From: Loxodes magnus
Taxonomy: Eukaryota; Ciliophora; Karyorelictea; Loxodida; Loxodidae
DNA: 64,000 nt
Direction of reading: 5' to 3'
NCBI GenBank assembly: GCA_946699065.1
Contig: CAMPDV010001089.1
Span: forward strand, 1 to 64,000
Within the stretch, counting starts at the first letter, position 1; each line of letters opens with the position of its first letter. This document shows positions 3-35,569 of the stretch, piece after piece. A program made the position numbers and the translations under genes. Under the pieces are notes generated by a model. It was not told the DNA's origin, did not search any database, and worked only from the letters and a program-made list of their open reading frames with translations.

Positions 3-1433
3 TTAATTAAGTTTAAATATTAATATAAAAAATTAGAAATAAAATAATATTCAAGTAATAAAGAATACGTTTAAAATAAAATAAACTGAACTCTCAAATA
101 AATTTTATAATCTGATACTAAAATTCTGTATATTGATACTTAGAAATGATAATAAGAAAATTAAGCAAAAGAAATCTTTCAATAAATAAAAAAATGTTTA
201 GAACTAAAATTAAATTTATTTCAAAAAGGATTTAAATTAGTATAAGAAATTCATTTACTTGAACTAAATAGTTTACATAAAACCTTTCAAGAATATATAT
301 CAAAATGCTCAAATCTAAAAAAATTAGTTTTAAGTATTTTCAATCTTTAAGAAGAAAATTTAAATTTTTTGTAAAACTTGACTCATTTATAATCCTTAGA
401 AGTCTAAGACATAAATAAAAAATAGATAACAGGAAAGTTTTTACTAGACTACTGTTTAGGGCTAAATTTAAAGGAACTAATTATATTTAGTGAAGAAATT
501 AATCAAGAAATTTTAGTATAGTACTTGAAATAAAAAGGAAGCTTATTAGAAGAAATAAACATTAACTTTTATGAGAATATTGACAAGTATATTGATTTTT
601 GTCCTAATTTAAATAAAATTGACTCTTATCAATTAGAAAGCCCTTACGACTAATTCATATTGAAGTTAAAAAACTTTAACCTTAGCTATTTAGCAATTTA
701 TCGAAACTTATAAATGTAAACAATATAAGAATTATTTTCTAAGTAGCATAATAAATTATAACATATTGAGATTTTTGATTGCTATAATTTTAATGATAAT
801 CAACTGATATCTTTATTGTAAAACTGTCCTAGTTTAGAATCTATTATATTGACTTCATTATAAGAACTTACTAATACATCTTTGAAGAAAATAGGAGATT
901 ATGGATAAAATTATAAAGAAATATCCTTTAATTCTGTTAGATAACTTTCTAATAAAAATCTATGTTATATTTTTGAGAATTGTAGAAAACCAACTAAATT
1001 ATCTCTTCGGGGTATGAAAAAAATGAAAAATAAGACTTTATAATCTTTGAGTTAAAACTGTAAGGAGTTAGAAATCTTAGACTTGGCATTATGTAAAATG
1101 TTAGATGAGAATTGAATAGATGAAATAGTTAAAATTAACAAATTAAAATAATTAGATTTTTATTACATTGAACTAAGTAACAAAGATTTAGTATAAATAG
1201 TAACTAACTGTAAACAATTAAAAATTTTAAATATTTGCGATTCAAAAGATGTTACATAGGAAGGTTTTCCACTTTGTGATTAAGAGGGATAAGAATATCC
1301 TTTTTGAAGAAATCTTAAATATTTAAATATTAGAGGAACGTCAATAAGTGAATAATGGGCTAATAAAGTTAAATAGAAGTTTGTAAGGATGACAATTTAC
1401 TATAATATTGAGGAAGATAGCATTCAAACTTGA
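3..1433 (+). CDS. F-box/LRR protein, copy 1 (type A), 5' end outside window
   Basis: Read with TAA/TAG as Gln, one frame runs from base 3 to a TGA at 1431-1433. The F-box half is missing to the left; by comparison with the other copies the ATG would lie about 400 bases before the window. The visible part is a leucine-rich-repeat domain of the Cys-containing F-box type: repeats such as CSNLKKLVLS, NCPSLESIIL, NCRKPTKLSL, NCKELEILDL and NCKQLKILNI recur every 22-28 residues. In-frame TGAs lie at 87, 147, 1113 and 1305. The first two fall inside a possible GT-AG intron (55-165). The third sits in the LRR motif LDEN-TGA-I, conserved in all copies. The fourth replaces a Tyr codon found in other copies. 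Known of the family: LRRs of F-box proteins bind the target to be ubiquitinated. Function here is inferred; whether this copy is translated is uncertain. Confidence 0.7.
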
Positions 1434-4400
1434 AAGAAAGTAAAGAACAATAAATATTTAATTTTATATTTTAATAAATAAAATTACTTAAAATAGCTTA
1501 TTAAGATACTTTTTATATTGCATTATAAAATATAATCTTTACATAACTTTGCTCGTAATAAGCAGAATAAAGTTATAATAAATAATGCTTCAGTTGTTAT
1601 ATATAAATAAATAACTATTGAAATATGAATTGTAAAGCATAATAATAAATAAAATATTTAGCTTTTGATATTAAAGCATTATTTTATATATTATTTAGTT
1701 GATAATCTTTAAATTATTGAACTTAAGCTTGAAAAAGATAAAAAGGAAAACAGCTAGAGTATATAATAATGAAGTTCAATAGAGAATTGATAAGAAAAGA
1801 ATAGTTTTAGAAACAATAAATGACAAGTTTAGGTGCATAAATAATTTAAAAGGATGTTATAATTATGCTAAAATATTAAGTTTAAATTAAAATATCTCTT
1901 ATTATAATATAAAACTAAGCTATTATTTTAATTTGGTCTAAAATTCTTATGTAGTTATCATATAAGCTATACTTAAATAAGAAATATCTTAAATAAATTA
2001 AAGTTTCACTTTTTACAAAAATAAAGAACTTCATTGATACTTTGATCGGTAACATATAATTAGTTTAAATTAGCTATTTTCTAGTTTGTATTCTAATAGA
2101 TTTATTAAATACTATAATAATAATTAAATTTTAAGAATTATAAAAATTATAAAGACCAACCTTATCAATAATCTTATAAAATCACTTTAACCATTTTTAT
2201 CTTATACATTTCTATTAAATTATTTAGCCTAATGTTTTTATTATAACCATCTCTTAAAAAATAAACTCTTAATTTTATTATATAAAATGAATTCCAAAGT
2301 TTCTCTTTCAATTATAGAATATAAAATTATTTTTGATGATAATGGTGAATAAAAATAAAATAAATTCTTATCAAATTAAGATTGTATAATAGTAACTAAT
2401 ATATATTTGTATAACTTGTTTATTTATAAAATTTATTAATCTTATTTTGCTAATTATTTTAAATAACTTCCTATATGATAGAAGTAACTTATAGCATAAT
2501 ACATTTTAGATTTTATAATAAAAGTAATTAATTAACATTTTTTATATGCTATTTTTAATCTATTAGTCTCTATATGTTTATACTAATATTAAACGATCAT
2601 ATTACTATTGATTAAATACATTCATCCTAAATGTTTTTATCTTTATTGTTGATTTATTTAAAAATTAATTTATTGTAAGATGATATACAATTTAATATCT
2701 CAAATAAAGTTTATTCTTAATGGTTTAATATTAAGAAGATAGTAGATTTTATAAAATTCCTTATAAAACAAGAGATAAAGTTAGTATTAGCTTTAATTAA
2801 TATAATATCTTATTTTTAATATATTAATCACTTATTATATATTTAGTATATTTAATAAGACTTAATTTATTTACATTTTAATTAAAATTCTAATAAATCA
2901 AAATAAAACATTTTATATTTTTTATTTTATTAATATGAAAAACAATTTATTGTTCTTGATTGATTTTATTCTCCTTTCCATTAACTTAATTGACTGAAGG
3001 TTAAATAAAAAGCCTAAATATCTTTGTTAATAATTAAAAATTTTATAAATTTCTCTTAATGATTTACTTTTGACCTCTTGATTTGGCCTAGTTATTGAAG
3101 TAAAGCATATTAATTAATGATATTTGAAAATGATTATGGTTTTAAGTTTTTTGTATTTTAGATATGAATTTGGAAAAAGTTAGTGACAGTATATTTGTTG
3201 ATAGGTTGGATTAGTTGTGTTTAGAAATATATTGATAGTTATATGTATAATATGTTTAAATTTAGTAAAATGAAATATTTGAATATTACAATATAAATGA
3301 TTTTCTAATGATTTAAACTTTGATTTTATTTATACTTTAATATTGTTGCATATCTTTTATCCAATTAAAGTAAAGAAAATAGTAGTTTAAGCATAAATTT
3401 AAACTTAAATATCTAGATTTTGGATAGTTTGATTTAAATATATTGATTAGAGGTATTTATCGTTATAAAATCTAAATACTAGCCTTTGAATTGTAATTTG
3501 ATTTAATTGGAATGATATAAAGTTTAATAAAGTCTGATTTAAAATAATAGAATGATTTTAAATGTTTATAATAATTATAAATATACTAAGTTATAATATA
3601 GATTTGTTTAAAACTAATCAAAATATTATAACTAATACCATTAAAATTGCATAATCTGAGTTAATAAATAAATTAATAATTTAATAACTAGTTTATACTT
3701 TTATATGTCATCAAATTAATTAATTATTAACTAAACCATTATTAATATCATCACTTATATTCATCTTTATACTTAATACTATTTACATCATATTTTCATT
3801 TAACATTTAACTAACTTATATTTATACTACCATTGCTTAAAGAGCCAAATATTCAATATTTTTAAATTACTAATCTATTATACTAAGAGCAATCAGCTTT
3901 AATACTAACTATTTTATCAATTAACATCTAAAAATGTAAGAAATGCTAAATATTTAAAGAAGGTATGAAGCATATCTATAAGCTAAAAGAAGTAATTAAA
4001 ATAAATCTAAAAAGAGAAATTACAAAATAATAATAAAACTATTTTATAAAAGTTAAAAGCTGTAAAAATAGCAGAGTAAAGAAACATTATAACTATTTTT
4101 AGCATTTATTACAATATTATATTTTAACTTTCAGAAAATCTAGATTTATTATTTTAAAATTAGGTTGTAAGAATATCAAACTTTTATGCAAAATTATAAA
4201 ATTATATTCAAATTAAAAAACATATACAATTACAACCAATACATTAAAAATTAATAGATTAAAGATCTATTTAAGAAATTATTTTAAAAAATTTAAAAAT
4301 ATTAAAAAAGTAGAATTCTCCAAGAAATTTAAATAATATACATTTAATTCTAAGAAATTTAAAATATATTTAATAGATAGTAATGTCATTAAAGCCTAAT

Positions 4401-5270
4401 CAAAATCTCATAAAATTATTAAATCTTTATTAAAAAAGAAAAATTAAAAAAATGGATATTTTAATTTGAAAATCTAATAAAAATATATTTATTAAAATTA
4501 AAGATAAGTGATAAGCTTGCTTTAATTACATTCAAAGAATAGCACTAATTAATAAATATTTAATTTTTTAAAGTTTTTAGTGATTAATTAATAAGATTTT
4601 TACATATTTAAGAAATTTCTCAAATTTACACCTTTGTTTATCAAAGCAAATAATAAATAAAATTATAAGTTTATAAGATTTTTTAATTATCTTTTTATAA
4701 CTTAAAGTAGTTTAACTATTTAAACATAAAATTTTAAAAGTTTCTTATGCTTTGCTAAAATGTTTTTTTGATTCAATGTCTATATTTTTATTATTTTTAT
4801 TTTTTTTAAATCAAAATTTTTTAATATTTTATTTAGCTATAAATTATATATAATTTGTATATTTATTTATAGTCCTTTTTTAGTGCTTTTTTCTTTTGAA
4901 GGAATTTTGAAGCTAATTAAGATTAAACTTGTTTAATAAATATTTAAAACTAAAATAATTTTAAAATTTATGTTTTACAATATAATTTTATTAGATTAAT
5001 TATATAAAATCATATTTAATGCTTTACTTAGATCTTCATTAGAATAAATAGAATTTATTAAAAATTTAAATTATAAAATACAGTTATAAATTAATAAGTT
5101 TTAGAAGAAAAGAAAATTAGAATAAAAATTAAAACAAGAAATTAATTATAAATTAATTATTATTTTATAAGCTAAAATAACTTAATAAAATAAATAATCA
5201 TATTTTTAACTATTAACTTAGTTATTTTAACTCTATTTATTTTCATATTCACTTATATTTCATTATAATA
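1434..5270. other. AT-rich spacer of unit A
   Basis: About 3.8 kb without a convincing coding frame in either the standard or the ciliate code. The same spacer follows the type A genes at 28933 and 47087 and, more diverged, the type B genes at 9892 and 37409. A GT-rich, strand-asymmetric stretch lies near 3160-3250. I see no RNA gene or mobile element in it. Confidence 0.5.
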
Positions 5271-5640
5271 AATAATAAATAAATAAATTCGATTTCAGAA
5301 CGCGTAGCACTCTCATTGGTGCGCAGCTCTTTAAATTAATTTTATTTTTATTGAGAAAAAATGTTATAGATCTATCTTTCCTTGTTTCCTCTTCCTGCAG
5401 TACGTCCCTGTAATTTTTCCTTGCAAAACATAGGATGCAATATGCGATTACGGGTACTTTTCCCGACCCATTATGAAGAAAGTTTCTTCTGGCATTGAGA
5501 GTTCTCCAACTTGTCACATCTTAGTTCTCTTGTTATTGGTTTCTCTTCTTCCGATTTATCCTCCGTCCGTGCTCATTTTTTGTTGCCTTGCTGGGCCTAC
5601 AAGCAGCATCCAAATGAGAGGGCTTTCCACTCTATTTAAA
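5271..5640 (-). mobile_element. SINE-like retroelement R1 (minus strand)
   Basis: A GC-richer island of about 360 bases in the AT-rich spacer. Read on the minus strand it starts near 5640 and ends with a stem-loop (GAGCTGCGCACC ... GTGCTACGCG) followed by a T/A-rich tail at about 5283. That 3' stem-loop matches the 3' end of the LINE fragment at 15.5-16.5 kb, as expected for an element mobilised by LINE machinery. Unit B, otherwise homologous, has no insert at the matching site (about 14400 and 41915). The sequence TATAATA(A) flanks both sides, a probable target-site duplication. An 84-codon standard-code frame (5263-5517, minus) lies inside but is not conserved as a gene; a small CxxC segment in it could be a decayed LINE C-terminus, so a short LINE derivative is the alternative to a true SINE. 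Confidence 0.65.
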
Positions 5641-7594
5641 TTATGTATATAATATAATAAAAAGGAGTTTAAATACAATTATAATTACATGTATATAACA
5701 TAATTTATAAAAGTTAACTATGCAAAAAGACAAGTAACTAAAATTGAAAAGCAATTAAGCTCTAATCATGAATATAAACTCTTTCTAAACAAATAACAAA
5801 GAATTTACTATAATATAGAGTATTTGCTGAATCACATTTTATTACATAGTATTCATCAATTCATTTTTAATATAATATAGAATTAAATTAAAAGAAAAGA
5901 AAATCATAATTAGGCTATAAAAAGGCTATTTATTTTATAAACATTTTCATAATGTTTTTTAAGAAAGTTCAGATTAAGTTGTATATTTTTTTTTCTAAGC
6001 CTTTAAAATATTTTTTAATTCTATTATATAAAAATAAAAAAATAATCTAAATTGATATTTAAATTTAATTACTTTTGGTATTAGGAGATATCAATATTTT
6101 ATATAACCATTTTAGCTATTTCCAAACATAAACTTTTAATATTTTGACTCATTATTAAAGCATAGTTTTATTAAAAGTAGTATTAAATAGCCAGCTTTTA
6201 AGATACAATAAGAAAAGATTACATTTTAAGAAATTAAGGTTCTTTTGTGTTTATGATTTTAACTGTAAGAAATAAATGTTGAATAATTACTTAAGTTTTA
6301 TTTATAAATATAATGTAAAATAAACAAAGATATTAAAATTATACTACTAAAAATTACTTAAAAGGATTTAGTAAAAAAGTAATTTAAATAGTTGCATCAC
6401 TTAGATTAAATGTAAATAACTTTATCTACTCTCAATATAATATTATAAAAATAGTATTCCTGAATGTTTTATAAGAATCATCTAGCATTAATGTAAATAT
6501 TAAAATTAGCTTAGATTGATATATGTTAATTACTTAAGTTATGGTAAGTAAATTAAATGTACTTTAAGTAAATTATAATTACTTTTTAAATTTAAGTGAT
6601 TTTATTAAAAATGTTAGTAAAGTTTTTATAATAATTAAGTTAGGAATTATTGTTTAATTATTTAATATTTTATTAATAGTTATTGTAGAAAAATAAAGAT
6701 TTTTAAAAAATAATTATAATAAAGTACTTATTTTTAAAGTATTACTTCTATTGATATTTAGCTTATATTATTTTATAATTAGTCAACTTATATTTTGTTC
6801 TTTACAAATTTTAATTATTCATTTTTTAGTGATTCAAAGCTATTTTTATCAATTTTCAAATAGAAAGTCTCTTCATTTTTTATAATAAAGTAACTTATTA
6901 GGCTTCTATAGAGTAAGAGATAAATATTATTAAATACTAAAACTTAAATATTTCTACACTTTATTTTCAATTTAAATAAACATTTAAAAAAGAGATTTTC
7001 CTATTAAGTTTAATCTATTTAAGATACTTTTAAATATTCTTTCCTATTATAAGGATTCTTCCTTTTATTACAATTATTACAATTATATTTTTTATTTTCC
7101 TATATTATCTCAAACTATCATATTTATTTTCACTATTATATTATATTCAAACTTTTCTTCTCTCAGGCCAATATCAAAACGTTCTAATCAATTTAGCTAG
7201 AAGGTTTTAAATATAAACAATAGCATGAAAGAACCATTTTTTAAGCTTCTAATTCCTAACTTCAGTCGAAATCCACTGATAGAGCAAAAACTTGCTTCAT
7301 CTATTTGGAGCAAGAAATTAAAATAGTGCAATATGAAAATTTGAAAATACATTTTAGGGCAACCTGATTTGAATAGTTGTAGACATAAAAAAATAATAAT
7401 TAAAGTATAATTAGAAATGTTTAAATAAATAAATTAATCATTTAAAGAAGTAGAAAATCTAAATAGAGACTCAAAAAAAAGAAATTGAAGATAAGAAGTT
7501 TTACTTTCTTATTATATAAAGAACAAAATTTGGATAAGCAATCAAAGCTGAATCAATATAATAAACTATTATTATTATATATATTAATTTTAAA
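5641..7594. other. AT-rich spacer, 3' part of unit A
   Basis: About 2 kb, no supported gene. Homologous to 14400-17060 of unit B, 33169-35112, 41930-43030 and (with deletions) 50859-51931. The part from about 7140 to 7594 precedes the SINE-like element in every unit and may include its diverged 5' portion. Confidence 0.45.
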
Positions 7595-7900
7595 TAGGGA
7601 GAAACAATCCTCCAACTGAGATTTACTTTAATTACTGTACCAAGAAATACTATGGGAGAACAGAACAAGAATCTCATAGAAACCAAGAGAAGAAAAAACT
7701 GAAGAAGCATCAAGTAAAGTTAAAGATGAAAGATGCCAGATATATTAACGGCTCTTAGGGAGAATTCAAATCACGGTCCTATAGAAGACAAGATTCACAA
7801 AGGAATGTTTGCGCTTTGGAAGACTTCAGCAAAGAGATATTTAAACATTAAAAATCTTTATTAAAGAACTGCACGCCATTGGGGTGCTACGTGCTCTATA
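7595..7900 (+). mobile_element. SINE-like retroelement R2, copy in unit A
   Basis: About 300 bases of higher GC that start at TAGGGAGAAAC and end with a small stem-loop, GAACTGCACGCC-ATTG-GGGTGCTACGTGCTC, then an AT-rich tail. It lies just upstream of the next F-box/LRR gene. Related copies occupy the same relative place at 17861, 35113, 44793 and 51932, so most were duplicated together with the unit rather than inserted separately. Non-coding; a 70-codon minus-strand frame (7501-7713) is a shadow. The 5' boundary is estimated from where similarity to the R3 variant (17066) begins. Confidence 0.6.
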
Positions 7901-7990
7901 ATTTATTTATTAATTTATATAATTTAAACAATTTATTATACTTATTTAAATCTATTTAAAATATGATTATGATTATATAAATTTATAAAT

Positions 7991-8007
7991 ATAGCCGTTA
8001 TTCATAA
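7991..8007 (+). promoter_or_regulatory. Conserved upstream element of copy 2
   Basis: ATAGCCGTTATTCATAA starts 59 bases before the ATG. The same block stands 57-59 bases before the ATG of all seven complete copies, including copy 8 whose sequence further upstream is unrelated. Its GC-containing core stands out in the AT-rich leader. A promoter or 5' UTR role is inferred. Confidence 0.5.
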
Positions 8008-8049
8008 TTTAAGTATAAATAGTCTGATAAAATAAAAAATTATAATAAA

Positions 8050-9891
8050 ATGCAAAGCAGGACTGATTAATCAACTAGTAGCTAAAACTATACACCAAAT
8101 AGTTCAAATTGTTAATCCTCTTCTGATCGATAATAAGAAGAATCTAATAAGAATCTCAAAGAAACTTAAGTAATAGCCCAAATTTAAAAGGATTTAACTT
8201 AAGACTAAAAATAAAAAATTAGTTAAATAAATTAAAAAGAATCAATAGAAGATTAAAAAGACTAAGAAATAACGCTTCAAATGAAGAGAATTCATGAACA
8301 CTTAAACTAAGAACAATAACTGTCTTAAGAATAATAACATATTAAGCAGTTTAAAAGTAATAAATAAACTTTATTTTCTAATTCTTATATTCTTCAAAAT
8401 ATTTGTTAGTTCCTTAAAAATATAGACATTTGTAGATTACAATTAGTTAATAAATTTCTAAATAAGTTTAAGTATTAATATAAAAAGTTAGAAATAAAAC
8501 AATATTCAAGTAATAAAGACTATGTTTAAAATAAAATAAACTGAACTCTCAAACAAATATTATAATCTGATACTAAAATTTTATATATTGATATTTAGAA
8601 ATGATAAGAAGAAAATTAAGCAGAAGAAATCTTTCAAGAAATAAAAAAATGCTTAGAACTAAAATTAAATTTATTTCAAAAAGGATTTAAATTAGTATAA
8701 GAAATTCATTTACTTGAACTAATTAATTTAGATAAAACCTTTTAAGAATATATCACAAAATGCTCAAATATAAGAAAACTAGTTTTAATTGTTTTTAATC
8801 TTTAAGAAGAAAATTTAAACTTTTTGTAAAGCTTGACTCATTTATAATCCTTAGAAATAGAAAACAGAAATTAGGAATCAATAACAGGAAAGTTTTTACT
8901 AGACTATTGTTAAGGATTGAATTTAAAGGAACTAATTATATTTAGTGAAGGAATTAATCAAGAAATGTTATTATAATATTTGAAATAAAAAGGAAACTTG
9001 CTAGAAGAAATAAATATTAACCATAATAGAGATATGGACAAGTATATTGATTTTTGTCCTAATTTAAACAAAATTAACTAATGTTATATAAAAATTTCTT
9101 ACGACTAATTCATATTAAAGTTAAAAAACTTTAAACTTAGTAGTTTTAAAAATTTTTTAAAGCTTATAAGCAGAAACAATATAAGAATTATTTTCTAAGT
9201 AGTAAAATAATTTATAGCATATTGAGATTTATGCCTGCAATAATTTTAATGATAATTACCTGATATCTTTATTGTAAAACTGTCCCTAATTTAAAAATCT
9301 ATTAAATTAAATTAATTATATAAACTTACTAATACATCTTTGAAGAAAATAGGAGATTATGGATAGAATTATAAAGAAATATCCTTTAATTCTGTTTAAT
9401 AACTAACTAATGAAACTCTATGTTATATTTTTGAGAATTGTAGGAAACTTACTAAATTATCTCTTAGTGATATGAAAAAACTAAAAAATAAGACTTTACA
9501 TTCTATGAGTTAAAACTGTAAGGAGTTAGAAATCTTAGACTTGCTATTATGTAAAATGTTAGATGAGAATTGAATAGATGAAATAGTTAAAATTAACAAA
9601 TTAAAATAATTAACTTTTTTTGACACTTAACTAAATAATAAAGATATAGTATAAATGGTAACAAACTGTAAGCATTTAAAATCTTTATATCTTTATAATT
9701 CAAAGGATGTTACATAAGAAGGCTTTCCAATTTGTGATTAAGAGGGATAAGAATACCTTTTTTATAGAAATCTTAAATATTTAAATATTAAAGGAACGTA
9801 AATAAGAAAATAATGGGCTAATTAACTTAAATAGAAGTTCGTAAGTATGACAATAATCCATAATGTTGAGAAAGGTAGCATTCAAACTTGA
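8050..9891 (+). CDS. F-box/LRR protein, copy 2 (type B), locally frame-shifted
   Basis: The frame opens with ATG CAA AGC AGG and ends at TGA 9889-9891, 613 codons (TAA/TAG = Gln). Residues 1-105 are a Gln/Ser/Glu-rich tail. Residues 107-146 form an F-box (SNSYILQNICQFLKNIDI then CRLQLVNKFLNK), which in this family binds Skp1 of an SCF ubiquitin ligase. Residues from about 190 on are Cys-type LRRs. Three single-base insertions relative to copy 5 (near 9143, 9281 and 9293) put about 150 bases out of frame, then restore it exactly. TGAs at 8542 and 8602 lie in a possible 111-base intron (8510-8620); TGA 9571 is the conserved LDEN-TGA-I site. Either a decaying copy or an assembly error in homopolymers; copy 5 is the intact relative. 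Confidence 0.65.
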
Positions 9892-12360
9892 AAGAAAGTA
9901 AACAAATATTCAATTTTATATTTTAATAAATAATTTATTAAATAAATAAAATTACTTAAAATAGCTTATTAAGATACTTTTTATATATAATAAAATATAA
10001 ATTTTACATAACTTATTCATAAAATAAGCAGAATAAAGAGATAATAAATAATGCTTAAATAGTTATATATAAATAAATGGATTTTTAAATATGAATTGTA
10101 AAGCATAATAATAAATAATCTATTTAACTTTTGATATTAAAGCATTATTTTATATAATTATTTAGTTGAAAATCTTTAAATTATTGCACTTAAACTTGAA
10201 AATGATAAAAAGGAAAGTAGATAGAGTATATAATAAAGAAATTTAGTAGATAATCGATGAGAAATGAATAGTTTGGAAATAATAAATGACAAGTTTAGGT
10301 GTAATAAATAATATAAAAGGATGTTATAATTATGCTAAAATATTAAGTTTAAATGAAAATATATCTTATTATAATATGAAACTAAGTTATTTTAATTTAG
10401 TCTAAAATTCTTATGTAGTTATCATATAAGCTATACTTAAATAAGAAATATCTTAAATAAATTAAAGTTTCACTTTTTACAAAAATAAAGAACTTCATTG
10501 ATACTTTGATCGGTAACATATAATTAGTTTAAATTAGCTATTTTCTAGTTTGTATTCTAATAGATTTATTAAATACTATAATAATAATTAAATTTTAAGA
10601 ACTATTAAAAATAATATAGACCAACCTTATCAATAATCTTATCAAATCACTTTAACCATTTCTATCTTATACATTTCTATTTAATTATTAAATTATTTAA
10701 ACCAAACCATAAATATAACCATCCCTTAAAAAATCTACTCTTACTTTATTATATAAAATTAAGCCCAAAGCTTCTCTTTAAGTATAGAAAATAAAAATAT
10801 TTTTGTTAATAATGAAAAATAAATTATTATTTTATAAAGATTGTATAATAGTAACTAATATATATTTGTATAACTTACTTATTTATAAAATGTTAAACTT
10901 ATTTAGTTAATTAATAAATTAAATAACTTTCTATATGATAGAAGTAACTTATACCCTTTATAGTAGCATAATAACCTTAAGATTTTATAAAAAAGTAATT
11001 AATTAAGATTTTTATAATGTATTAATCTCTATATGGTTATACTAATATTAAAGGATCATAATACTATTGGTTAAATAGATTGATTCTAAATGTTATATCT
11101 TAGTGTTGATTATTTAAAAATGAATTAATTTTAAGATATTATAAAATTGAATATCTCAAATAAAGTTTATTCTTAATGGTTTAATATTAAAAAGATAGTA
11201 GATTTTATTAAATTCGCTAAGAATTTAAATTAAATGTTAGGTTTGATTAATATAATATGTTAAATTGAATATATTAATCCTTTATTATATATTTTAATAT
11301 ATTTAATAAGACTTAATTTTATTAGAATATTAATGAAAATTAGAATAAATAAAATATTTTATCTTTTTTATTTTTAGTTTATATGAATAAAGATATTTAG
11401 TGTTATTGATTTATTTTATTCTCTTTTTCATTAACTTTGTTGACTGAAAGTTAAATAAAAGATTAAATATTTTAGTTATCTATTAAAAAATATTTTCCAG
11501 TTCTCTTGATGATTTACTTTTGAGGTGTTTATTTCTGCTTAGTTATTGAAGTAAAGCTTTTATTAATGAATGGTTTTTTAAAATGAATATCTTTTAAGTT
11601 TTTTATTTTTCAGTTTAGATATTAATTTAACAAAATAGTTTTAATCTCTTTTGAATAAATAATTCAATGAATTACAATAATAGCAAGAATTGTTTTATTT
11701 TTTACTTATAAATTGAATATCTTCTATTATCATTCAATCTTTAACTCTTTCTTTAATTAAGTAGAAAAATGATTTTAACTGCCTAATCCTCTTGTTTATT
11801 GAAATATTTGATTTTAGTGATAGGCTTAATTTGAGGTGAGTTTTGTGGGTTGATGGTTAAGAATTGATCTGTTTGTTGAGATAAATGTTGATGGTATTTG
11901 TGGATTTGTTAATTGACTATAATGTTGATATATTGCATAGTTATATTAAATATATTGATAGTTATAATATGTTGAATTATAAGTTAAGTATTTGAATAAA
12001 AAGATTACAATATAAGTGTATTTATTTTGTAATAATTTAAAGTTTGATTTGATTTATACTTTATGTTGTATATCTAATTAAAGTAAAGAAAATTGTAGAT
12101 TAAACATAAATTTAAAATTATAAATATCTAAATTTATTATTCTTTTATTTAGATATTTAATTATAGACAAATATTTATCGTTATAAATTTAAAAAATTAG
12201 AATTTTATCTCTAATTTTATTTTAATTTAAATTAAGAAAAAAGTAGATTGGAATTATATAAAGTTTAATAAAATCTGATTTAAAATGATAGAATTATTTT
12301 AAATGTTTACCTTAATAATAAACTATAATATAGATTTTTTAAAAGTAATCAAAATATTAT
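9892..12360. other. AT-rich spacer of unit B
   Basis: No supported gene. Recognisably homologous to the type A spacer from 1434 on, and nearly identical to 37409-39875. A GT-rich asymmetric stretch, 11830-12000, is shared with the duplicate. Confidence 0.45.
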
Positions 12361-12745
12361 CAATCTCTTAAGAAACTAAATTTATAATTTGTTCATGTTT
12401 ATTTTTATTTTTTACATTGAGGAAGTAGAAATAAATTAAATTTAATATCTTAAAATAAATCTTTTTACAGTAGAGTTATTTTAGTATCTCTCTAAAATAG
12501 ATAGTAAATAATATATTTTATAGATACAAATTGTTAAATAAAATTTCATCTATATAAAAATAATATTTACTATCTATTATAGAGATATAAAATAATTAAG
12601 TCTTAAGTATAATTTGAGATAGCCTTTCTATAGTAAAATATGTATATAAAATATATTATTTTTATGGCTTTTAATATTTAAAAATATAGATAGTTTTTAA
12701 ATAAATTTATCTTATTTTCATTTATTTTTATCTATAGAAAACTAA
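12361..12745. mobile_element. Hairpin-bearing insert (MITE-like) in unit B
   Basis: Unit A reads straight through this place (near 3630), whereas unit B carries about 385 extra bases. Inside is a large imperfect inverted repeat: the left arm about 12463-12520 (core AATAGATAGTAAATA) and the right arm about 12553-12596 with an outer part at 12625-12640 (core TATTTACTATCTATT). The single strand could fold into a stem of some 60 bases. No coding frame. Clear terminal inverted repeats and a target duplication were not established, so MITE is only the nearest label; a germline-eliminated segment is another possibility. The twin copy is 39876-40272. Confidence 0.45.
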
Positions 12746-15490
12746 TAAAAAATTAATAATAAAAATTGTATAATCTGAGTTAAATAAAATACTTAGCTAA
12801 ATTAATAATTTAATAACTAATTCCTACCTTTAAGTGTGATAAAACTAATTAATTATTAACATTTTGAAGCATAATTACTATGATAAGTTATTTTAATCTT
12901 TATATTTAATAAAATTTACATTTTATATATATTTTAATTTTAACTAAGAGTAGATATTAATTGCAATCTGCTATAACTTATATTTATCACATTTCAAGAT
13001 TGCTTAAATAGACAAATATATCAACATTTTTAAACTAAACTAATCTATTATACTAAGAGCAGCTAGCTTTAATACAAACTATTAAATTAACATTTTAAAA
13101 ATTAAACTAACCTAAAATATTTAATGAAGGTATGAAGCATACCTATAAAAGTAAAACATGTAATTCAAATTAATTTAAAAGAGAAATTATCAAATAATAA
13201 TAAAATAATTTGATAAAAGTTAAAAGCTGAAGTAAAGAATTATTATACTATTTTACAATATTATATTTTAACTTTTACAAAATACAGATTTATTATGAAC
13301 AAAATTACCTTGCAACAGTAAAAACTCTTATGCAAAATTACAAATATACAAATATAACCAATAAATAAACACATTAAACATAAAGAGAGAAAATTATATT
13401 TACAAAATATTTAAAACTATCTAAAAATATTAAAAAGTACAATCCTCCATAAAATAAACATAAACTTCATAAAAAATTTAAATTTATTTCATTCTAATTA
13501 TTCAAAATATCTTAAATAAAAATATCATTAAACCCTAATTAAATTAAAAATATTTCATAAAATAACTTTAATTTTATTTTTAAAGCAGATTAAAAAAATT
13601 GATATATTATTTGAAAATCTAAATAAAAATATATTTATTAAAAAACAGATAACTGATTAGCTTGCTTTAATTACATTAAAAGAATAACAATCATTAATAA
13701 ATATTTAATTTTTTTTAAGTTTTTAGTGATTAATTAATAAGATAATTAAATGTTTAAGAAATTTCTCTTTATTTATACTTAGTTTAATAAAGTAAATAAT
13801 AAATAAAATTAGAAATTTATAAGATTTTTTAATTAATCTTTTATGACTTAAATTAGTCTGATTATATAACATAATATTTTCTTGTTTCTTTTGAATTACT
13901 AAAATATCTTTTATATATGTTTACTTTTTCTTTAATTCATTTTTTAATAATTTATTTTCATTTGATTTAGCTGTGAGTCATATATAATTTGTAAATTTAT
14001 GTATAATCATTTTTTTACTTTTTCTTTTGAAAGAATTTTGAAGCTAATTAAGATTAAACTTATTTAATAGATATTTAAAACTAAAATAATTTAAAAATTT
14101 ATGTTTATAATATACATTTTATTAGATTAATTATATAAAATCATATTTAATGCTATACTTAAATCTTCATTAGAATAAATAGAATTTAATAAAAAATAAT
14201 TTAAATTTAAATTAAAAAATACAGTTATAAGTTAATAAGTTTTAGAATAAAAGAAAATTAGAATAAAAATTAAAATAAGAAATTAATTATAAATTAATTA
14301 TTATTTTCTAAGCTAAAATAACTTAATAAAAATAAATAATCATATTTTTAACTACTAACTTAGTTATTTAACTCTATTTATTTTCATATTATCTGATATT
14401 TTATTATACAATTATAATTACTATGCATATAATTTAAAAAGTTAACTATGCAAAAAAATAAGTAACTAAAATTGAAAAGTAATTAAGTTGTTATAATAAA
14501 TAAAGACTCTTTGTAAATAAATAAAAAAGCATTTACTTTAATAAAGAGTATTTGCTGAATCACATTACATAGCATTCATCAATTCATTTTTAGTATAATA
14601 TTAAATTAAAAGAAAATTATAATTTGGCTATAAAAAGACTATTTATTTTATAAACATTTTAAAAATGCTTTTTAAGAAATTTCAAATAAAGTTGTATATT
14701 TTTTTCTAAGCCTTTAAAATATTTTTTAATTCTATTATATAAAATTATAAAAAGTAATCTAAAATTGATATTTAAATTTATTATTTTTGGTTTTAAAAGA
14801 TATTTTTAAATATTTTATTAATTGATAAATAGCTATTTCGAAAGATAAAGTTTAATTTTAACATTTTTACTCATTATTGATTAAAGCATATTTTAGTTTT
14901 ATTTTACAAAAATAGTATTAAATAAAAATTAAATACCCAGCTTTTTATTAAGATAGAAAAACTATAAGAAAATATTTATTAAATGTTCTTAAATTAACCT
15001 TTTATTTCTTTTGTGTCTATAATTTTAATTGTAAAAATTCCTTTTTAATAATTGCTTAAGTTTTAACTATGGATTTTGATATAAAATATACGAAATAATA
15101 TTAAGTAAAATAAACAAAGATATTAAAATCATACTACTGTTGAAAAAATCTGCTTAAAAAGATTTAGAAAGTAAAAAAGTAAATTAAATAGTAAATCATT
15201 TAGATTTAAATGTAAATAACTTTATCTACTCTCAATATAATATTATAAAGATTATATTCCTGAATGTTTTATAATAATTATTTAACATAAATGTAAATAT
15301 TAAAATTAACTTAAAATGTAAAATATATGTTAATTACTTAAGTTATGGTAAGTAAAATTTAATCTACTTATAGTAAATTATTATTGCTTTTTAAATTTAA
15401 GTTATTTTATTAAAAATAAAAGTTTACTAAACTTTTTATAATAATTAAGTTAGGAATTATTCTTTAATTATTTATTTTTAATATTTTATT
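12746..15490. other. AT-rich spacer of unit B, second part
   Basis: No supported gene. Homologous to 3640-6660 of unit A except that the R1 element is absent at about 14400 (the empty site). Confidence 0.45.
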
Positions 15491-16520
15491 AAGATTAAGA
15501 GGCAAATTAATAGGAAACAAAGGAAAAACCATAGACGGATTATTGTTCGACCTAGGTAAAGAAGAGAATTTTATATTTGAATAATGCTGCACAGCAATAA
15601 AAGTAGAATTAAAAATTGAAGACAAAGAAATATTTATAGATGATGGTAATTACAATTAAAAAGGAAAGAAAAACATTAATCCTGTAATATGAGAATATAG
15701 AGTATACGTAGAAGATAGAAAGGATGGAGTAAATGATAACAACATTACAATATAGAAAAACATGATTTGATGAATATGTAGTAGGACCACCAAATTACCT
15801 GAGAAATAATAAAAATAGAAAAGAAGAAATATGTTACCTATTTAGAATAAGAACGAGATGTAATGGGAGTTAGGATTGCTTAAAAGAAAGACAGCTAGTT
15901 ATGACAAGTCAGTGCCTTTTCTGTAACAATGCAAGAGAAATCGAAAAGCATATCATAGAAAACTGTTCAGAATACAAGAAGGAAGATAATAATGTATCTG
16001 AAATCTTAGAGCATCAGGAGTAGAGAGATAAGGAATGGAACTATTTGATATAATATGAGGAACGGCCAAATTCGAGAAATTCATTAGAATCTAAGAAAAG
16101 TAAAAGAGATAAAGCTGACTTGATAATAAAAGATTATATCAAAAATATATTAGAAAAAAGGAAAAGAGGATATATAGAAAAGAAAATTGAATGCAAAAGA
16201 GAAATAAGAAAAGACTATAGAGCAGGAAAAGGATAATTTTTATGAGTGTATAAAAGCTTGATCAAAAAGAAAATAATTAGAAATGAAAATTAGTAAGATA
16301 TATAAGAAAAAATAAATAAAGTTTGCAATAAAGATCTAAAAAAGCGTAGATAGATAGAAGACAGAAGAACAAGAGTTAACATTGAGGAAAGTGAGGAAGA
16401 TATGTAACTAATAAGAGAAGAATTTTTATTACCTGAAGGCTTACTTGAAGAAACGGACGTATATTGAGATATGTAAAGAGCTGCGCACCAACGAGGTGCT
16501 ACGCGCTCTATAATCAAATT
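15491..16520 (+). mobile_element. 5'-truncated non-LTR retrotransposon (REP-like), 3' end
   Basis: A 1-kb, less AT-rich insert absent from unit A. The frame from ATG 15724 to TGA 16465-16467 reads (TAA/TAG = Gln) as a LINE C-terminal domain. It holds a finger Cys-x2-Cys-x8-His-x4-Cys (CLFCNNAREIEKHIIENC, 15913-15966), followed by a Lys/Arg/Glu-rich tail. A preceding stretch, 15537-15700, is open in another frame (GLLFDLGKEENF), so at least one indel is present. In-frame TGAs at 15763 (KT-TGA-FDEY) and 16243 suggest decay or Trp codons. It ends in the stem-loop GAGCTGCGCACC ... GTGCTACGCG and an ATTT-rich tail. Endonuclease and catalytic reverse-transcriptase domains are missing, so it cannot move by itself. 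Known: REP elements of Tetrahymena are germline-limited non-LTR retrotransposons; assignment to that family is inference. Confidence 0.7.
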
Positions 16521-18317: not shown

Positions 18318-20156
18318 ATGTAAAGTGGCACTGATTAATCAACTAGTAACTAAAACTATACACTAGATAATCCAAACTAATAATCCTCTTCTGATCAATA
18401 ATAAGAAGAATCTAATAAGAATCTCCAAGAAACTTAAGCAACAGTCCAAATATAAAGTCATTTAGCTTAAGACTAAAAATAAAAAATTAGTTAAATAAAT
18501 TAAAAAGAATCAATAGAAGATTAAAAAGACTAAGAAATAACGCTTCCAATGAAGAGAATTCATGAACACTTAAACTAAGAACAATAACTTACTTAAGAAT
18601 AATAAGGTACTAAGCAGCTTAAAAGTAGTAAATAAACTTTATTTTCTAATTCTTATATTCTTCAAAATATTTGTTAGTTCCTTAAAAATATCGATATAAG
18701 TAGACTACAGTAAGTTAATAAATTTCTAAATAAGTTTAAATATTAATTTGAAAAGTTAGAAATAAAACAATATTCAAGTAATAAAGACTATGTTTAAAAT
18801 AAAAAAAACTGAACTCTCAAACAAATTTTATAATCTGATACTAAAATTTTATATATTAATACTTATGATTGATAAAAGCAAAATTAAGCAGAAGAAATCT
18901 TTCAATAAATAAAAAAATGCTTAGAACTAAAATTAAATTTACATCAAAAAGGATTTAAATTAGTATAAGAAATTCATTTACTTGAACTAAATAATTTAGA
19001 TAAAACCTTTCAAGAATATATTTCTAAATGCTCAAATCTAAAAAAAATAGTTTTAAGTGCTTTCAATCTTTAAGAAGAAAATATAAGTTTTTTATAAAAC
19101 TTGACTCATTTATAATCCTTAGAAATCTAAGACATAAGTTATAAATAGATAACAGGAAAGTTTTTACTAGACTACTGTTTAGATTTAAATTTAAAGGTAC
19201 TAAATTTATTTAGTAAAGGATTTAATCAAGATATTTTATTGCAATATTTGTAGAAAAAAGGAAATTCATTAGAGGAAGTAAATATAAACTAAAATGAAAA
19301 TATGGATAGTTATATTGATTTATGTCCTAATTTAAGCAAAATTGACTCTTATAAAGTATAAAATTAATTAGAATAATTCATACTGAAGATAAGAAACTTG
19401 AACCTTAGTAGTTTAAAAATTTATCGAAACTTATAAATGTAAACAATATAAGAATTATTTTCTAAGTAGCATAATAAATTATAACATATAGAGATTTATT
19501 ATTGCTATAATTTTAATGATAATCACCTTATATCTTTAATGTAAAACTGTCCTAATTTAAAATCTATTATATTAGATTCATTATATAAACTTACTAATAC
19601 ATCTTTGAAGAAAATAGGAGATTACGGATAGAATTATAAAAAAATATCTTTTAGTTATGATATATAACTTTCTAATAAAACTCTATGTTATATTTTTGAG
19701 AATTGTAGAAAACTAAAAAAATTATCTTTTGGGGATATGGAAAAACTAAATAATAAGGCTTTATAATCTTTGAGTTAGAACTGTAAGGAGTTAGAAAGTT
19801 TAGACTTGATATTTTGCAAAATGTTAGATGAGAATTGAATAGATGAAATAGTTAAAATAAACAAATTAAAATAATTAAATTTTTATTACATTGAACTAAA
19901 TAATAAAGATATAGTAAAAATAGTAACTAACTGTAAGCAATTAAAGTATTTAAAACTTGCGAATTCAAAGGATATTACATAGGAAGGTTTTCCACTTTGT
20001 GATTAAGAGGGATAAGAATATCCTTTTTATAGAAATCTTAAATATTTAGATATTAGATGAACGTCAATAAAAGAATAATTGGTGTATGAACTCAAATAGA
20101 AGTTCGTAAGGATGACAATATTCCATAATGTTGAGAAAGATAGCATTCAAACTTGA
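18318..20156 (+). CDS. F-box/LRR protein, copy 3 (type C)
   Basis: 612 codons from ATG TAA AGT GGC to TGA 20154-20156, no frame shift. Order of parts: Gln/Ser/Glu-rich tail 1-105; F-box about 107-146 (ending RLQQVNKFLNK); then LRRs with CSNLKKIVLS, NCPNLKSIIL, NCRKLKKLSF, NCKELESLDL and NCKQLKYLKL. Family role: substrate receptor of an SCF (Skp1-cullin-F-box) ubiquitin ligase. In-frame TGAs: 18810 and 18870 (inside the possible GT-AG intron 18778-18888), 19836 (LDEN-TGA-I), and 20058, where a Gly codon of other copies (GGA) has become TGA. This last change looks like decay of the C-terminus unless TGA is read through. A GC-rich insert begins 35 bases after the stop. Confidence 0.72.
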
Positions 20157-20189
20157 AAGAAAGTAAATAAATATTTAATTTTATATTTA

Positions 20190-20495
20190 ATTTAATTTTA
20201 AACTAAAAGAGTTTTGGACTGCAACTTCTTGCAGTTTAACGACCCCAGCACTCCCTTCATGGGATAACGGGGATATCCTGTTACTTTCGAAAAGCAGCTG
20301 CCAGGGAGCTCCATCGCTATGGGCAGCTAGGCTTCAAGCCCCTACCAGGAGTGGATAATCAAAATGAAGGCGTTCCCTTGCAAAGGTTGACTTTGACCAG
20401 GGACTTTCTCAGCGACAGGAAAGGAACTTGTTCCTAGCCATAAAACCAGAAAGTATGATTTAGAAGGTCAATCTCAGCTTCCACCATCTTTTTAA
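20190..20495. mobile_element. GC-rich structured insert with target-site duplication
   Basis: About 300 bases near 50% GC, placed in the 3' flank of copy 3 and absent from the other seven copies. The flanks repeat ATTTAATTTTATATTT on both sides (about 20172-20187 and 20497-20512), the mark of a retroposed or transposed insert. Inside are strong hairpins: CTGCAA-cttc-TTGCAG, AGCTGCC ... GGGCAGCT, and GGCTT-caa-GCC. The + strand ends in TCTTTTTA, a possible RNA polymerase III terminator. No coding frame. I do not recognise the parent RNA; clear tRNA boxes were not found. A SINE made from a structured small RNA is the best guess. Confidence 0.55.
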
Positions 20496-27102: not shown

Positions 27103-28932
27103 ATGTAAAGTGGGAGTAAATCAACTAATAACTAAAACTAAACATTAGATAACCCAAATTAATAGTCCTCTTATAATCGATAATAATAAACATCTATTAT
27201 CAAAGAAACTTAAGTAGCAGCCCAAATCCAAAACTATTTATCATAAGATTAAAACCAAAAACACAATTTGATAAATTAAACAATATCAATATAAAAGTAG
27301 TAAGAATAAGAAATAACGCTTCCAATTAAGAGATTTCATGAACACTTAAACTAAGAAGAAGAACTGTCTTAAGAATAATAAAGTGCCAAGCAGTTTAAAA
27401 GTAGTAAATAAACTTTATTTTCTAATTCTTATATTCTTCAAAATATTTGTTAGTTCCTTAAAAATAGAGACATAAGTAGACTATTATAGGTTAATTAATT
27501 TCTAAATAAGTTTAAATATTAATATAAAAAATTAGAAATAAAATAATATTCAAGTAATAAAGAATACGTTTAAAATAAAATAAACTGAACTCTCAAATAA
27601 ATTTTATAATCTGATACTAAAGTTCTGTATATTGATACTTAGAAATGATAATAAGAAAATTAAGCAAAAGAAATCTTTCAATAAATAAAAAAATGTTTAG
27701 AACTAAAATTAAATTTATTTCAAAAAGGATTTAAATTAGTATAAGAAATTAATTTACTTGAACTAAATAATTTAGATAAAACCTTTTAAGAATATATCAC
27801 AAAATGCTCAAATCTAAAAAAATTAGTTTTAAGTATTTTCAATCTTTAAGAAGAAAATTTAAATTTTTTGTAAAACTTGACTCATTTATAATCCTTAGAA
27901 GTCTAAGACATAAATAAAAAATAGATAACAGGAAAGTTTTTACTAGACTACTGTTTAGGGCTAAATTTAAAGGAACTAATTATATTTAGTGAAGAAATTA
28001 ATCAAGAAATTTTAGTATAGTACTTGAAATAAAAAGGAAGCTTATTAGAAGAAATAAACATTAACTTTTATGAGAATATTGACAAGTATATTGATTTTTG
28101 TCCTAATTTAAACAAAATTGACTCTTATCAATTAGAAAGCCCTTACGACTAATTCATATTGAAGTTAAAAAACTTTAACCTTAGCTATTTAGCAATTTAT
28201 CGAAACTTATAAATGTAAACAATATAAGAATTATTTTCTAAGTAGCATAATAAATTATAACATATTGAGATTTTTGATTGCTATAATTTTAATGATAATC
28301 AACTGATATCTTTATTGTAAAACTGTCCTAGTTTAGAATCTATTATATTGACTTCATTATAAGAACTTACTAATACATCTTTGAAGAAAATAGGAGATTA
28401 TGGATAAAATTATAAAGAAATATCTTTTAGATATGCTAGATAACTTTCTAATAAAACTCTATGTTATATTTTTGAGAATTGTAGAAAACCAATTAAATTA
28501 TCTCTTCGGGGTATGAAAAAAATGAAAAATAAGACTTTATAATCTTTGAGTTAAAACTGTAAGGAGTTAGAAATCTTAGACTTGGCATTATGTAAAATGT
28601 TAGATGAGAATTGAATAGATGAAATAGTTAAAATAAACAAATTAAAATAATTAGATTTTTATTACATTGAACTAAATAACAAAGATTTAGTATAAATAGT
28701 AACTAACTGTAAACAATTAAAAATTTTAAATATTTGCGATTCAAAGGATGTTACATAGGAAGGTTTTCCACTTTGTGATTAAGAGGGATAAGAATATCCT
28801 TTTTGAAGAAATCTTAAATATTTAAATATTAGAGGAACGTCAATAAGTGAATAATGGGCTAATAAAGTTAAATAGAAGTTTGTAAGGATGACAATTTACT
28901 ATAATGTTGAGGAAGATAGCATTCAAACTTGA
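27103..28932 (+). CDS. F-box/LRR protein, copy 4 (type A)
   Basis: 609 codons from ATG TAA AGT GGG to TGA 28930-28932, frame kept throughout. The N-terminal Gln/Ser-rich tail (about 105 residues) differs most between copies. The F-box (SNSYILQNICQFLKNRDI, then RLLQVNQFLNK) follows, then LRRs almost identical to copy 1. In-frame TGAs: 27586 and 27646 (within the possible intron 27554-27664), 28612 (LDEN-TGA-I) and 28804 (PF-TGA-RNLKYL, Tyr in types B, C and D). Expected role by family: SCF ubiquitin-ligase substrate receptor. This is the full-length reference for copy 1, whose start is off the window. Confidence 0.73.
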
Positions 28933-31900
28933 AAGAAAGTAAAGAACAATAAATATTTAATTTTATATTTTAATAAATAAAATTACTTAAAATAGCTTAT
29001 TAAGATACTTTTTATATTGCATTATAAAAAATAAGTTTTAGATAACTTTGTTCGTAATATAAGTAGAATAAAGAGATAATAATTAATGTTTTAGTTGTTA
29101 TATATAAATAAATAACTATTGAAATATTAATTGTATAGCATAATAATAAATAAAATATTTAGCTTTTGATATTAAAACATTATTTTATATATTATTTAGT
29201 TGATAATCTTTAAATTATTGAACTTAAGCTTGAAAAAGATAAAAAGGAAAACAGCTAGAGTATATAATAATGAAGTTTAATAGAGAATTGATAAGAAAAG
29301 AATAGTTTAGAAACAATAAATGACAAGTTTAGGTGCATAAATAATTTAAAAGGATGTTATAATTATGCTAAAATATTAAGTTTAAATTAAAATATCTCTT
29401 ATTATAATATAAAACTAAGCTATTATTTTAATTTGGTCTAAAATTCTTATGTAGTTATTATATAAGCTATTCTTAACTAAAAAATTAATATCTTAAATAA
29501 ATTAAAGTTTCACTTTTTACAAAAAAATAAAGAACTTAATTGATACTATTTAGAGATCGATAACATATAATTGTTTAAATTAGCAATTTTCTAGTTTGTA
29601 TTCTAATAGATTTATTAAATACGCTAATAATAATTAAATTTTAAGAATTATAAAAAATTATAAAGACCAACCTTATCAATAATCTTATAAAATCACTTTA
29701 ACCATTTTTATCTTATACATTTCTATTAAATTATTTAGCCCAATGTTTTTATTATAACCATCTCTTAAAAAATAAACTCTTAATTTTATTATATAAATTG
29801 AATTCCAAAGTTTCTCTTTCAATTATAGAATATAAAATTATTTTTGATGATAATGGTGAATAAAAATAAAATAAATTCTTATCAAATTAAGATTGTTTAA
29901 TAGTAACTAATATATATTTGTATAACTTGTTTATTTATAAAATTTATTAATCTTATTTTGCTAATTATTTTAAATAACTTCCTATATGATAGAAGTAACT
30001 TATAGCATAATACACTTAAGATTTTATAAAAAAGTAATTAATTAATATTTTTATATGCTATTTTTAATCTATTAGTCTCCATATGTTTATACTAATATTA
30101 AACGATCATATTACTATTGATTAAATACATTCATTCTAAATGTTTTTATCTTTATTGTTGATTTATTTAAAAATTAATTTATTGTAAGATGATTTACAAT
30201 TTCATATCTCAAATAAAATTTATTCTTAATGGTTTAATATTAAGAAGATAGTAGATTTTATAAAATTCCTTATAAAACAAGAGATAAAGTTAGTATTAGC
30301 TTTAATTAATATAATATCTTATTTTTAATATATTAATCACTTATTATATATTTAGTATATTTAATAAGACTTAAATTATTTACATTTTAATTAAAATTCT
30401 AATAAATCAAAATAAAACATTTATATTTTTTATTTTATTAATATTAAAAATAATTTATTATTCTTGATTGATTTTATTCTCCTTTCCATTAACTTAATTG
30501 ACTGAAGGTTAAATAAAAAGCCTAAATATCTTTGTTAATAATTAAAAATTTTATAAATTTCTCTTAATGATTTACTTTTGACCTCTTGATTTGGCCTAGT
30601 TATTGAAGTAAAGCATATTAATTAATGATATTTGAAAATGATTATGGTTTTAAGTTTTTTGTATTTTAGATATGAATTTGGAAAAAGTTAGTGACAGTAT
30701 ATTTGTTGATAGGTTGGATTAGTTGTGTTTAGAAATATATTGATAGTTATATGTATAATATGTTTAAATTTAGTAAAATGAAATATTTGAATATTACAAT
30801 ATAAATGATTTTCTAATGATTTAAACTTTGATTTTATTTATACTTTAATATTGTTGCATATCTTTTATCCAATTAAAGTAAAGAAAATAGTAGTTTAAGC
30901 ATAAATTTAAACTTAAATATCTAGATTTTGGATAGTTTGATTTAAATATATTGATTAGAGGTATTTATCGTTATAAAATCTAAATACTAGCCTTTGAATT
31001 GTAATTTTGATTTAATTGGAATGATATAAAGTTTAATAAAGTCTGATTTAAAATAATAGAATGATTTTAAATGTTTATAATAATTATAAATATACTAAGT
31101 TATAATATAGATTTGTTTAAAACTAATCAAAATATTATAACTAATACCATTAAAATTGCATAATCTGAGTTAATAAATAAATTAATAATTTAATAACTAG
31201 TTTATACTTTTATATGTCATCAAATTAATTAATTATTAACTAAACCATTATTAATATCATCACTTATATTCATCTTTATACTTAATACTATTTACATCAT
31301 ATTTTCATTTAACATTTAACTAACTTATATTTATACTACCATTGCTTAAAGAGCCAAATATTCAATATTTTTAAATTACTAATCTATTATACTAAGAGCA
31401 ATCAGCTTTAATACTAACTATTTTATCAATTAACATCTAAAAATGTAAGAAATGCTAAATATTTAAAGAAGGTATGAAGCATATCTATAAGCTAAAAGAA
31501 GTAATTAAAATAAATCTAAAAAGAGAAATTACAAAATAATAATAAAACTATTTTATAAAAGTTAAAAGCTGTAAAAATAGCAGAGTAAAGAAACATTATA
31601 ACTATTTTTAGCATTTATTACAATATTATATTTTAACTTTCAGAAAATCTAGATTTATTATTTTAAAATTAGGTTGTAAGAATATCAAACTTTTATGCAA
31701 AATTATAAAATTATATTCAAATTAAAAAACATATACAATTACAACCAATACATTAAAAATTAATAGATTAAAGATCTATTTAAGAAATTATTTTAAAAAA
31801 TTTAAAAATATTAAAAAAGTAGAATTCTCCAAGAAATTTAAATAATATACATTTAATTCTAAGAAATTTAAAATATATTTAATAGATAGTAATGTCATTA

Positions 31901-32794
31901 AAGCCTAATCAAAATCTCATAAAACTATTAAATCTTTATTAAAAAAGAAAAAAAATTAAAAAAATGGATATTTTAATTTGAAAATCTAATAAAAATATAT
32001 TTATTAAAATTAAAGATAAATGATAAGCTTGCTTTAATTACATTCAAAGAATAACACTCATTAATAAATATTTAATTTTTTAAAGTTTTTAGTGATTAAT
32101 TAATAAAATTTTTACATATTTAAGAAATTTCTCAAATTTACTCCTTTGTTTATCAAAGCAAATAATAAATAAAATTATAAGTTTATAAGATTTTTTAATT
32201 ATTTTTTTACAACTTAAAGTAGTTTAACTATTTAAAATAAAATTTTAAAAGTTTCTTATGCTTTGCTAAAATGTTTTTTTGATTCAATGTCTATATTTTT
32301 TATTATTTTTATTTTTTTTTAATCTAAATTTTTTAATATTTTATTTAGATATAAATTATATATAATTTGTATATTTATTTATAATCCTTTTTTAGTGCTT
32401 TTTCTTTTGAAGGAATTTTGAAGCTAATTAAGATTAAACTTGTTTAATAAATATTTAAAACTAAAATAATTTTAAAATTTATGCTTTAAAATATACATTT
32501 TATTAGATTAATTATATAAAATCATATTTAATGCTTTATTTAGATCTTCATTAGAATAAATAGAATTTAATAAAAAATAATCAAAAAAATTTAAATTAAA
32601 AAATACAGTTATAAGTTAATAAGTTTTAGAAGAAAAGAAAATTAGAATAAAAATTAAAACAAGAAATTAATTCTAAATTAATTATTATTTTATAAGCTAA
32701 AAGAACTTAATAAAAATAAATAATCATATTTTTAACTACTAATTTAGTTATTTTAACTCTATTTATTTTCATATTAATTTATATTTTATTATAA
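28933..32794. other. AT-rich spacer of second unit A
   Basis: Nearly identical to 1434-5270; no gene seen. Confidence 0.5.
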
Positions 32795-33168
32795 TAAATA
32801 ATAAATAAATAAATTCGATTTCAGAACGCGTAGCACTCTCGTTGGTGCACAGCTCTTTAAATTAATTTTATTTAATGTCGAAAAAATTTTATAAATCTAT
32901 CTTTCCTTATTTTCTCTTCCTACGGTATGTCCCTGTAATTTTTCCTTCCAAAGCATAGGATGCAATAAGCAATTACGGGTACATTTCCCCGACCTATGAT
33001 GAAGAAAGTTTCCTTCTGGCATTCAGAGTTCTCCAACTTGTCACATCTTCCTTCTCTTGTATTGGTTTCTCTTTTTCCGATTTAACCTCCGTCCGCGCTC
33101 ATTTTTTTGTTGCCTTGCTGGGTCTCCAAGCAGCATCTGAAGGAGAGGCTTTCAACCCTATTTAAATT
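32795..33168 (-). mobile_element. SINE-like retroelement R1 (second copy)
   Basis: Same element and same site as 5271-5640, so it was carried by duplication of the unit. On the minus strand it ends with the GAGCTG(T)GCACC ... GCTACGCG stem-loop. Small differences include a T-for-C change in the loop region. Confidence 0.65.
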
Positions 33169-35421: not shown

Positions 35422-35510
35422 TCTTATTTATTAATTTATATAATTTAAACAGTTTATTATACTAATTTAAATCTATTTAAAATATGATTATGATTATATA
35501 AATTATAAAT

Positions 35511-35527
35511 ATAGCCGTTATTCATAA
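35511..35527 (+). promoter_or_regulatory. Conserved upstream element of copy 5
   Basis: ATAGCCGTTATTCATAA, 59 bases before the ATG at 35570. Confidence 0.5.
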
Positions 35528-35569
35528 TTTAAGTATAAATAGTCTGATAAAATAAAAAATTATAATAAA

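Follow-up and report, generated by a model that had tools for sequence, protein, structure and literature searches.

The window, by which we mean the whole 64,000-nucleotide stretch of Loxodes magnus DNA analyzed here, carries eight copies of a leucine-rich repeat (LRR) gene with an in-frame TGA at the same place in each, and the question raised by this locus is how that triplet is read. A sequence-only reading of the window offered three options without a firm choice: TGA read as tryptophan (or read through), a true stop followed by a fossil tail, or a short intron. The first of these is the one we retain, with support from TGA use across the genome and from the form of the tRNA; the fossil tail and the intron are both set aside. 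We regard it as close to certain that the TGA of the LDEN-TGA-I motif serves as a normal Trp codon of an F-box/LRR gene in L. magnus nuclear DNA, translated with NCBI code 27. With that code, TAA and TAG would specify glutamine, TGA would specify tryptophan inside a coding sequence and act as a stop near the end of the mRNA, and the TGA that the copies share 106 codons downstream would be the real stop.

Decoding and termination in the cell are inferred here from the literature. PMC11441545 reports that karyorelicts use NCBI table 27, in which UGA is the sole stop and means Trp at a sufficient distance from the poly-A tail, and that coding UGAs are depleted over about 20 codons before the gene end. 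TGA as Trp at this locus is an instance of this already published genetic code. What looks like a striking in-frame stop becomes a normal Trp codon once the code of the organism is known, and other 'stop' findings in the window need to be read with code 27 as well.

The TGA is present in all eight copies in which the sequence-only reading had placed it, preceded in each by LDEN and followed by I:

1113-1115, forward strand: copy 1, LDEN-W-I with TGA as Trp
9571-9573, forward strand: copy 2, TGA as Trp
19836-19838, forward strand: copy 3, TGA as Trp at residue 507 of P0003
28612-28614, forward strand: copy 4, TGA as Trp
37088-37090, forward strand: copy 5, TGA as Trp
46766-46768, forward strand: copy 6, TGA as Trp
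53907-53909, forward strand: copy 7, TGA as Trp
61001-61003, forward strand: copy 8, TGA as Trp; the 5' part of this copy is out of frame

The frame and the LRR pattern, said to go on for more than 100 codons past the TGA, do so for 105 codons without a gap in all eight copies, up to a terminal TGA at +318 nt (106 codons past LDEN-TGA-I) that is common to all eight. Conservation of the codon in every copy was also confirmed (TGA in 8/8 window copies, never TGG), but the invariance of this one codon is unremarkable because 40 of the 105 downstream codons are identical across all eight copies too; before the TGA, 34 of the 85 gap-free codons are identical.

The gene copies that contain these sites are as follows:

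3-1433, forward strand: copy 1, F-box/LRR gene truncated at the 5' end by the edge of the window; terminal TGA 1431-1433
8050-9891, forward strand: copy 2, terminal TGA 9889-9891; a stretch lying upstream of its LRR end is out of frame
18318-20156, forward strand: copy 3, full-length F-box/LRR gene, ATG at 18318; internal TGAs at residues 165, 185, 507 and 581; terminal TGA 20154-20156
27103-28932, forward strand: copy 4, full-length, ATG at 27103; terminal TGA 28930-28932
35570-37408, forward strand: copy 5, full-length, ATG at 35570; terminal TGA 37406-37408
45251-47086, forward strand: copy 6, full-length, ATG at 45251; terminal TGA 47084-47086
52389-54227, forward strand: copy 7, full-length, ATG at 52389, with an extra TGA two codons before the terminal TGA at 54225-54227
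59487-61321, forward strand: copy 8, ATG at 59487, with its 5' and 3' parts in different frames; terminal TGA 61319-61321

Read with the bacterial code, the window has no stop-to-stop frame as long as 200 codons. With TAA and TAG read as Gln, the F-box/LRR gene is open apart from its TGAs (copy 3 has 57 in-frame TAA or TAG codons over 612 codons), and with TGA read as Trp, copies 3-7 span 609-612 codons from the ATG to the shared terminal TGA. The five full-length window copies contain 3-6 TGA and 0-2 TGG codons each. At codon columns -342 and -322, numbered relative to the LDEN-TGA-I site, TGA is found in all six copies compared (1 and 3-7). Column +64 is TGA in four copies and TAT (Tyr) in four, column +74 is TGA in two and GGA in six, column +81 is TGG in seven and TTG in one, and columns -137, +17 and +104 are TGA in copy 7 alone. 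The sequence-only reading was silent on the abundant in-frame TAA and TAG codons, on the two other shared TGAs and on the further variable ones. Copies 2 and 8 each have an out-of-frame stretch amid otherwise alignable sequence (roughly 9150-9300 and 59500-60700), and are possibly pseudogenes or assembly errors.

Four copies were tested against Pfam, and all four scored above the cut-off for PF24758 (F-box protein LRRs). The Pfam F-box itself was matched in two of the four proteins with E values of 0.0064 and 0.079, below the gathering score, and was absent from the other two. The best solved relatives found by phmmer are FBXL2 (E 4.6e-18) and FBXL17, and the alignment to both runs through the TGA codon. 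In an AlphaFold model (mean pLDDT 63.9, 5 family sequences, N-terminal 175 residues unreliable) the LRR solenoid is continuous through residue 507, with a block mean pLDDT of 80 and then 93. Fold matches to TIR1, COI1 and FBXL17 have TM-scores of 0.34-0.48 over the query, the best of them, TIR1 and COI1, being moderate at 0.43-0.48. The PF24758 score, the FBXL2 and FBXL17 matches and the modeled fold point to a predicted LRR solenoid of the F-box/LRR type. The window proteins are like FBXL2, FBXL17 and TIR1 in LRR type and differ in an F-box that stays below the Pfam gathering score; by the usual inference they would have a putative substrate-recognition role in ubiquitin ligation. Ten other long code-6 frames of the window gave no Pfam match at E 0.01. 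A literature search on LRR-containing F-box proteins in Loxodes found no paper, and we draw no claim of novelty from it.

The sequence-only reading had suggested a survey of TGA use in other genes, and its outcome is clear. We searched the genome as DNA for the kinase motif D[VIM]xS[LF]GC with the middle codon left open, a position that we take to be normally Trp, and used the reversed motif as a control. The motif gave 658 genome matches and the control none. The 99 matches listed have TGA as the open codon 57 times, TGG 33 times and some other codon 9 times, with no Cys codon; the 77 distinct 21-mers among the matches listed divide into 37 TGA, 31 TGG and 9 other. Of the 136 kinase domains scored, out of 5,592 candidates, 91 had at least one in-frame TGA. 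Histone folds are expected to be Trp-poor, and 3 of 31 histone-fold matches contained a TGA, all three among the weaker matches; the low number next to the kinases favors the Trp reading, and the presence of any TGA there counts against it.

Chaperonin (CCT) matches contained TGA in 7 of 29 cases, and in 2 of the 22 full-length ones, each of which has in-frame TAA or TAG. The Trp-type codons of 20 CCT loci (L039-L058; 20 fetched of the 29 matches) comprise 44 TGG and 2 TGA, a near-exclusive use of TGG that counts against the Trp reading of TGA; this Trp-poor family is a poor test of TGA use. Locus L047 has TGA in a column where L043 and L046 carry TGG, and L054 has TGA in a column without Trp. 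In two pairs of CCT loci, L052/L053 and L057/L058, the C-termini match as far as a TGA, after which the sequences diverge. The preference of the CCT loci for TGG is opposite to that of the kinase motif, and highly expressed genes may avoid TGA.

The F-box/LRR family itself is large and partly tandem. Its nearly full-length copies number at least 72, with listed identities of 67-90%; the query's own entry stands at 90%, presumably since stop codons score as mismatches. All 72 listed paralogues (of 3,072 candidates) cover nearly the whole protein and have 2-7 internal TGAs each in an open frame of 603-621 codons. Members of the family lie in the window at 8050, 18318, 27103, 35570, 45251 and 52389, and on contigs C250, C1089 (which carries the window), C385, C1545, C1087, C2305, C855 and C567. 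The gene exists in dozens of copies, many in tandem; this family and the tRNA-Trp arrays described below are useful side facts for karyorelict genome work.

These observations agree with NCBI table 27, as used by Loxodes and Parduczia, in three respects. TAA and TAG are sense codons (57 in copy 3, and found in all 22 full-length CCT matches); TGA occupies Trp positions inside coding sequences (57 TGA and 33 TGG of the 99 listed kinase motifs; L047 compared with L043 and L046); and the predicted stop at gene ends is TGA (at +106 codons in 8/8 copies, with the alignment breaking after it, and in the CCT pairs). In seven of the eight copies the last internal TGA precedes the terminal one by 32 codons or more, which fits the depletion over about 20 codons described in PMC11441545. 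Copy 7 is different, with a TGA two codons before the terminal TGA (54219-54227), inside the reported UGA-depleted zone; it may simply end two codons early.

A search for the tRNA-Trp arm with up to two mismatches gave 1,019 genome matches, compared with 31 for the reversed control, and the anticodon is CCA in all 100 listed of these matches. ARAGORN called tRNA-Trp(CCA) at all three loci given to it. The same arm with a UCA anticodon and no mismatches allowed had no match in the genome, a search that a UCA tRNA of different sequence would escape. In all 37 distinct tRNA-Trp(CCA) copies read, which all belong to the C67 array, the anticodon stem has an A.C mismatch as its top pair, leaving four pairs below a CCA anticodon in a 7-nt loop, and ARAGORN draws the same form. 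The genes form tandem arrays at C67:482309-491370 (L059-L088) and C148:155450-168712. Each array has 49 listed copies, spaced at about 187 bp in the first and 241 bp in the second. tRNA-Lys and tRNA-Ala are multi-copy too, and array abundance may not be special to Trp. Within the window, ARAGORN found no tRNA genes and there was no Rfam match at the gathering score.

According to PMC13092985, tRNA-Trp(CCA) with a 4-bp anticodon stem from Blastocrithidia and Condylostoma increases readthrough of UGA in reporter assays; the article also names Loxodes as having this form, for which it cites another paper. The tRNA-Trp(CCA) seen here resembles this known form in its unpaired top anticodon-stem pair (37/37 read, one array) and differs in its occurrence in tandem arrays of dozens of genes, the stem having been read in the C67 array. 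In Condylostoma magnum, PMC4967479 describes Trp at UGA by mass spectrometry and no UCA tRNA-Trp, a likeness to the present case, where the UCA search covered one pattern; the same paper has all three stop codons of C. magnum also terminating, a difference from the gene ends looked at here, which use TGA. Decoding of the LDEN-TGA-I codon would thus likely proceed through a 4-bp-stem tRNA-Trp(CCA), an already-known mechanism. The tRNA set had been proposed as a check on the codon: its UCA form found no match to the one pattern used, and the CCA tRNA with a 4-bp anticodon stem fits the known mechanism instead.

A variant of the Trp reading is that the three shared UGA codons are kept (never UGG; 8/8 at the LDEN site and 6/6 at the other two) for partial termination. 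If so, the amount of full-length F-box/LRR protein would be set by the balance of 4-bp-stem tRNA-Trp against eRF1. We think this very improbable.

Mean pairwise nucleotide identity is 0.884 over the 270 nt before the TGA, 0.877 between it and the terminal TGA, and 0.747 over the 300 nt beyond. None of the eight copies has an indel in the 321 nt that begin at the TGA and run to the terminal TGA, and the next 300 nt contain 6-9 gap runs per copy, of which the last may be end padding. Variable sites at codon positions 1/2/3 number 26/20/34 before the TGA (85 gap-free of 90 codons) and 32/24/41 after it (105 codons); past the terminal TGA, where 30 of 60 codon columns are gap-free, they number 20/22/25. 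The pattern after the TGA resembles that before it and is coding-like as far as the terminal TGA.

The dN/dS comparison recommended by the sequence-only reading did come out lower before the TGA than after it, and alone decides nothing. By the Nei-Gojobori method, with bootstrap ranges over pairs that are not independent, dN/dS is 0.54 (0.44-0.68) before the TGA, 0.70 (0.45-1.10) after it in all eight copies, 0.73 (0.45-1.22) after it in copies 3-7 alone and 0.83 (0.57-1.18) beyond the terminal TGA. The range after the TGA includes 1, and dN/dS alone is therefore not decisive on purifying selection there. This rise is what speaks for the TGA as a true stop with the 3' part as the fossil tail of a truncated gene family. 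That account has to contend with a TGA common to 6/6 copies compared that would truncate the protein already at residue 165, with the freedom from indels and the coding-like codon positions as far as the terminal TGA, with the 72 listed paralogues (of 3,072 candidates) that keep a nearly full frame, and with the kinases that carry TGA at the motif Trp genome-wide. We rejected it on the indel pattern, the codon-position variability, the earlier shared TGAs and the genome-wide TGA use, and give it a chance even slimmer than that of partial termination.

An equally slim chance goes to UGA specifying another amino acid (e.g. Cys or Sec), or to a regulated, programmed readthrough special to the F-box/LRR family. 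The LRR position does not itself demand Trp, the FBXL2 residue aligned to the TGA codon being Gly; this counts against the Trp reading, and the presence of TGA in 8/8 copies, never TGG, is in keeping with a special role. At the kinase motif, however, TGG is the main alternative to TGA and Cys codons number 0 among the 99 listed; column +64 has a Tyr codon in place of TGA in half of the copies; and TGA is common in other genes, so that nothing sets the F-box/LRR family apart.

Least probable of all is removal of the TGA by a Paramecium-like 27-nt GTA...TAG intron, which is found in copies 1, 2, 4 and 6 and is absent not only from copies 7 and 8, as the sequence-only reading had recognized, but also from copies 3 and 5, and whose excision would take out part of an LRR. 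We examined every in-frame GT...AG of 15-45 nt that starts up to 40 nt upstream of each of the three shared TGAs, and rejected an intron since none is common to all copies compared at any of them; copy 7 has no such GT...AG at all across LDEN-TGA-I. L. magnus introns, as described in PMC11441545, have a mean length of 19.3 bp and a mode of 17 bp, with multiples of three depleted.

The array also contains a 16.3-kb direct duplication, in which window positions 4-16300 recur some 27.5 kb away at 27503-43844 with 96.7% identity. When copy 3 is aligned to the other copies, most of the alignments end near 20196-20207, and different DNA therefore follows copy 3; the interval 19801-20400, which covers the end of copy 3 and beyond, has a GC content of 31%.
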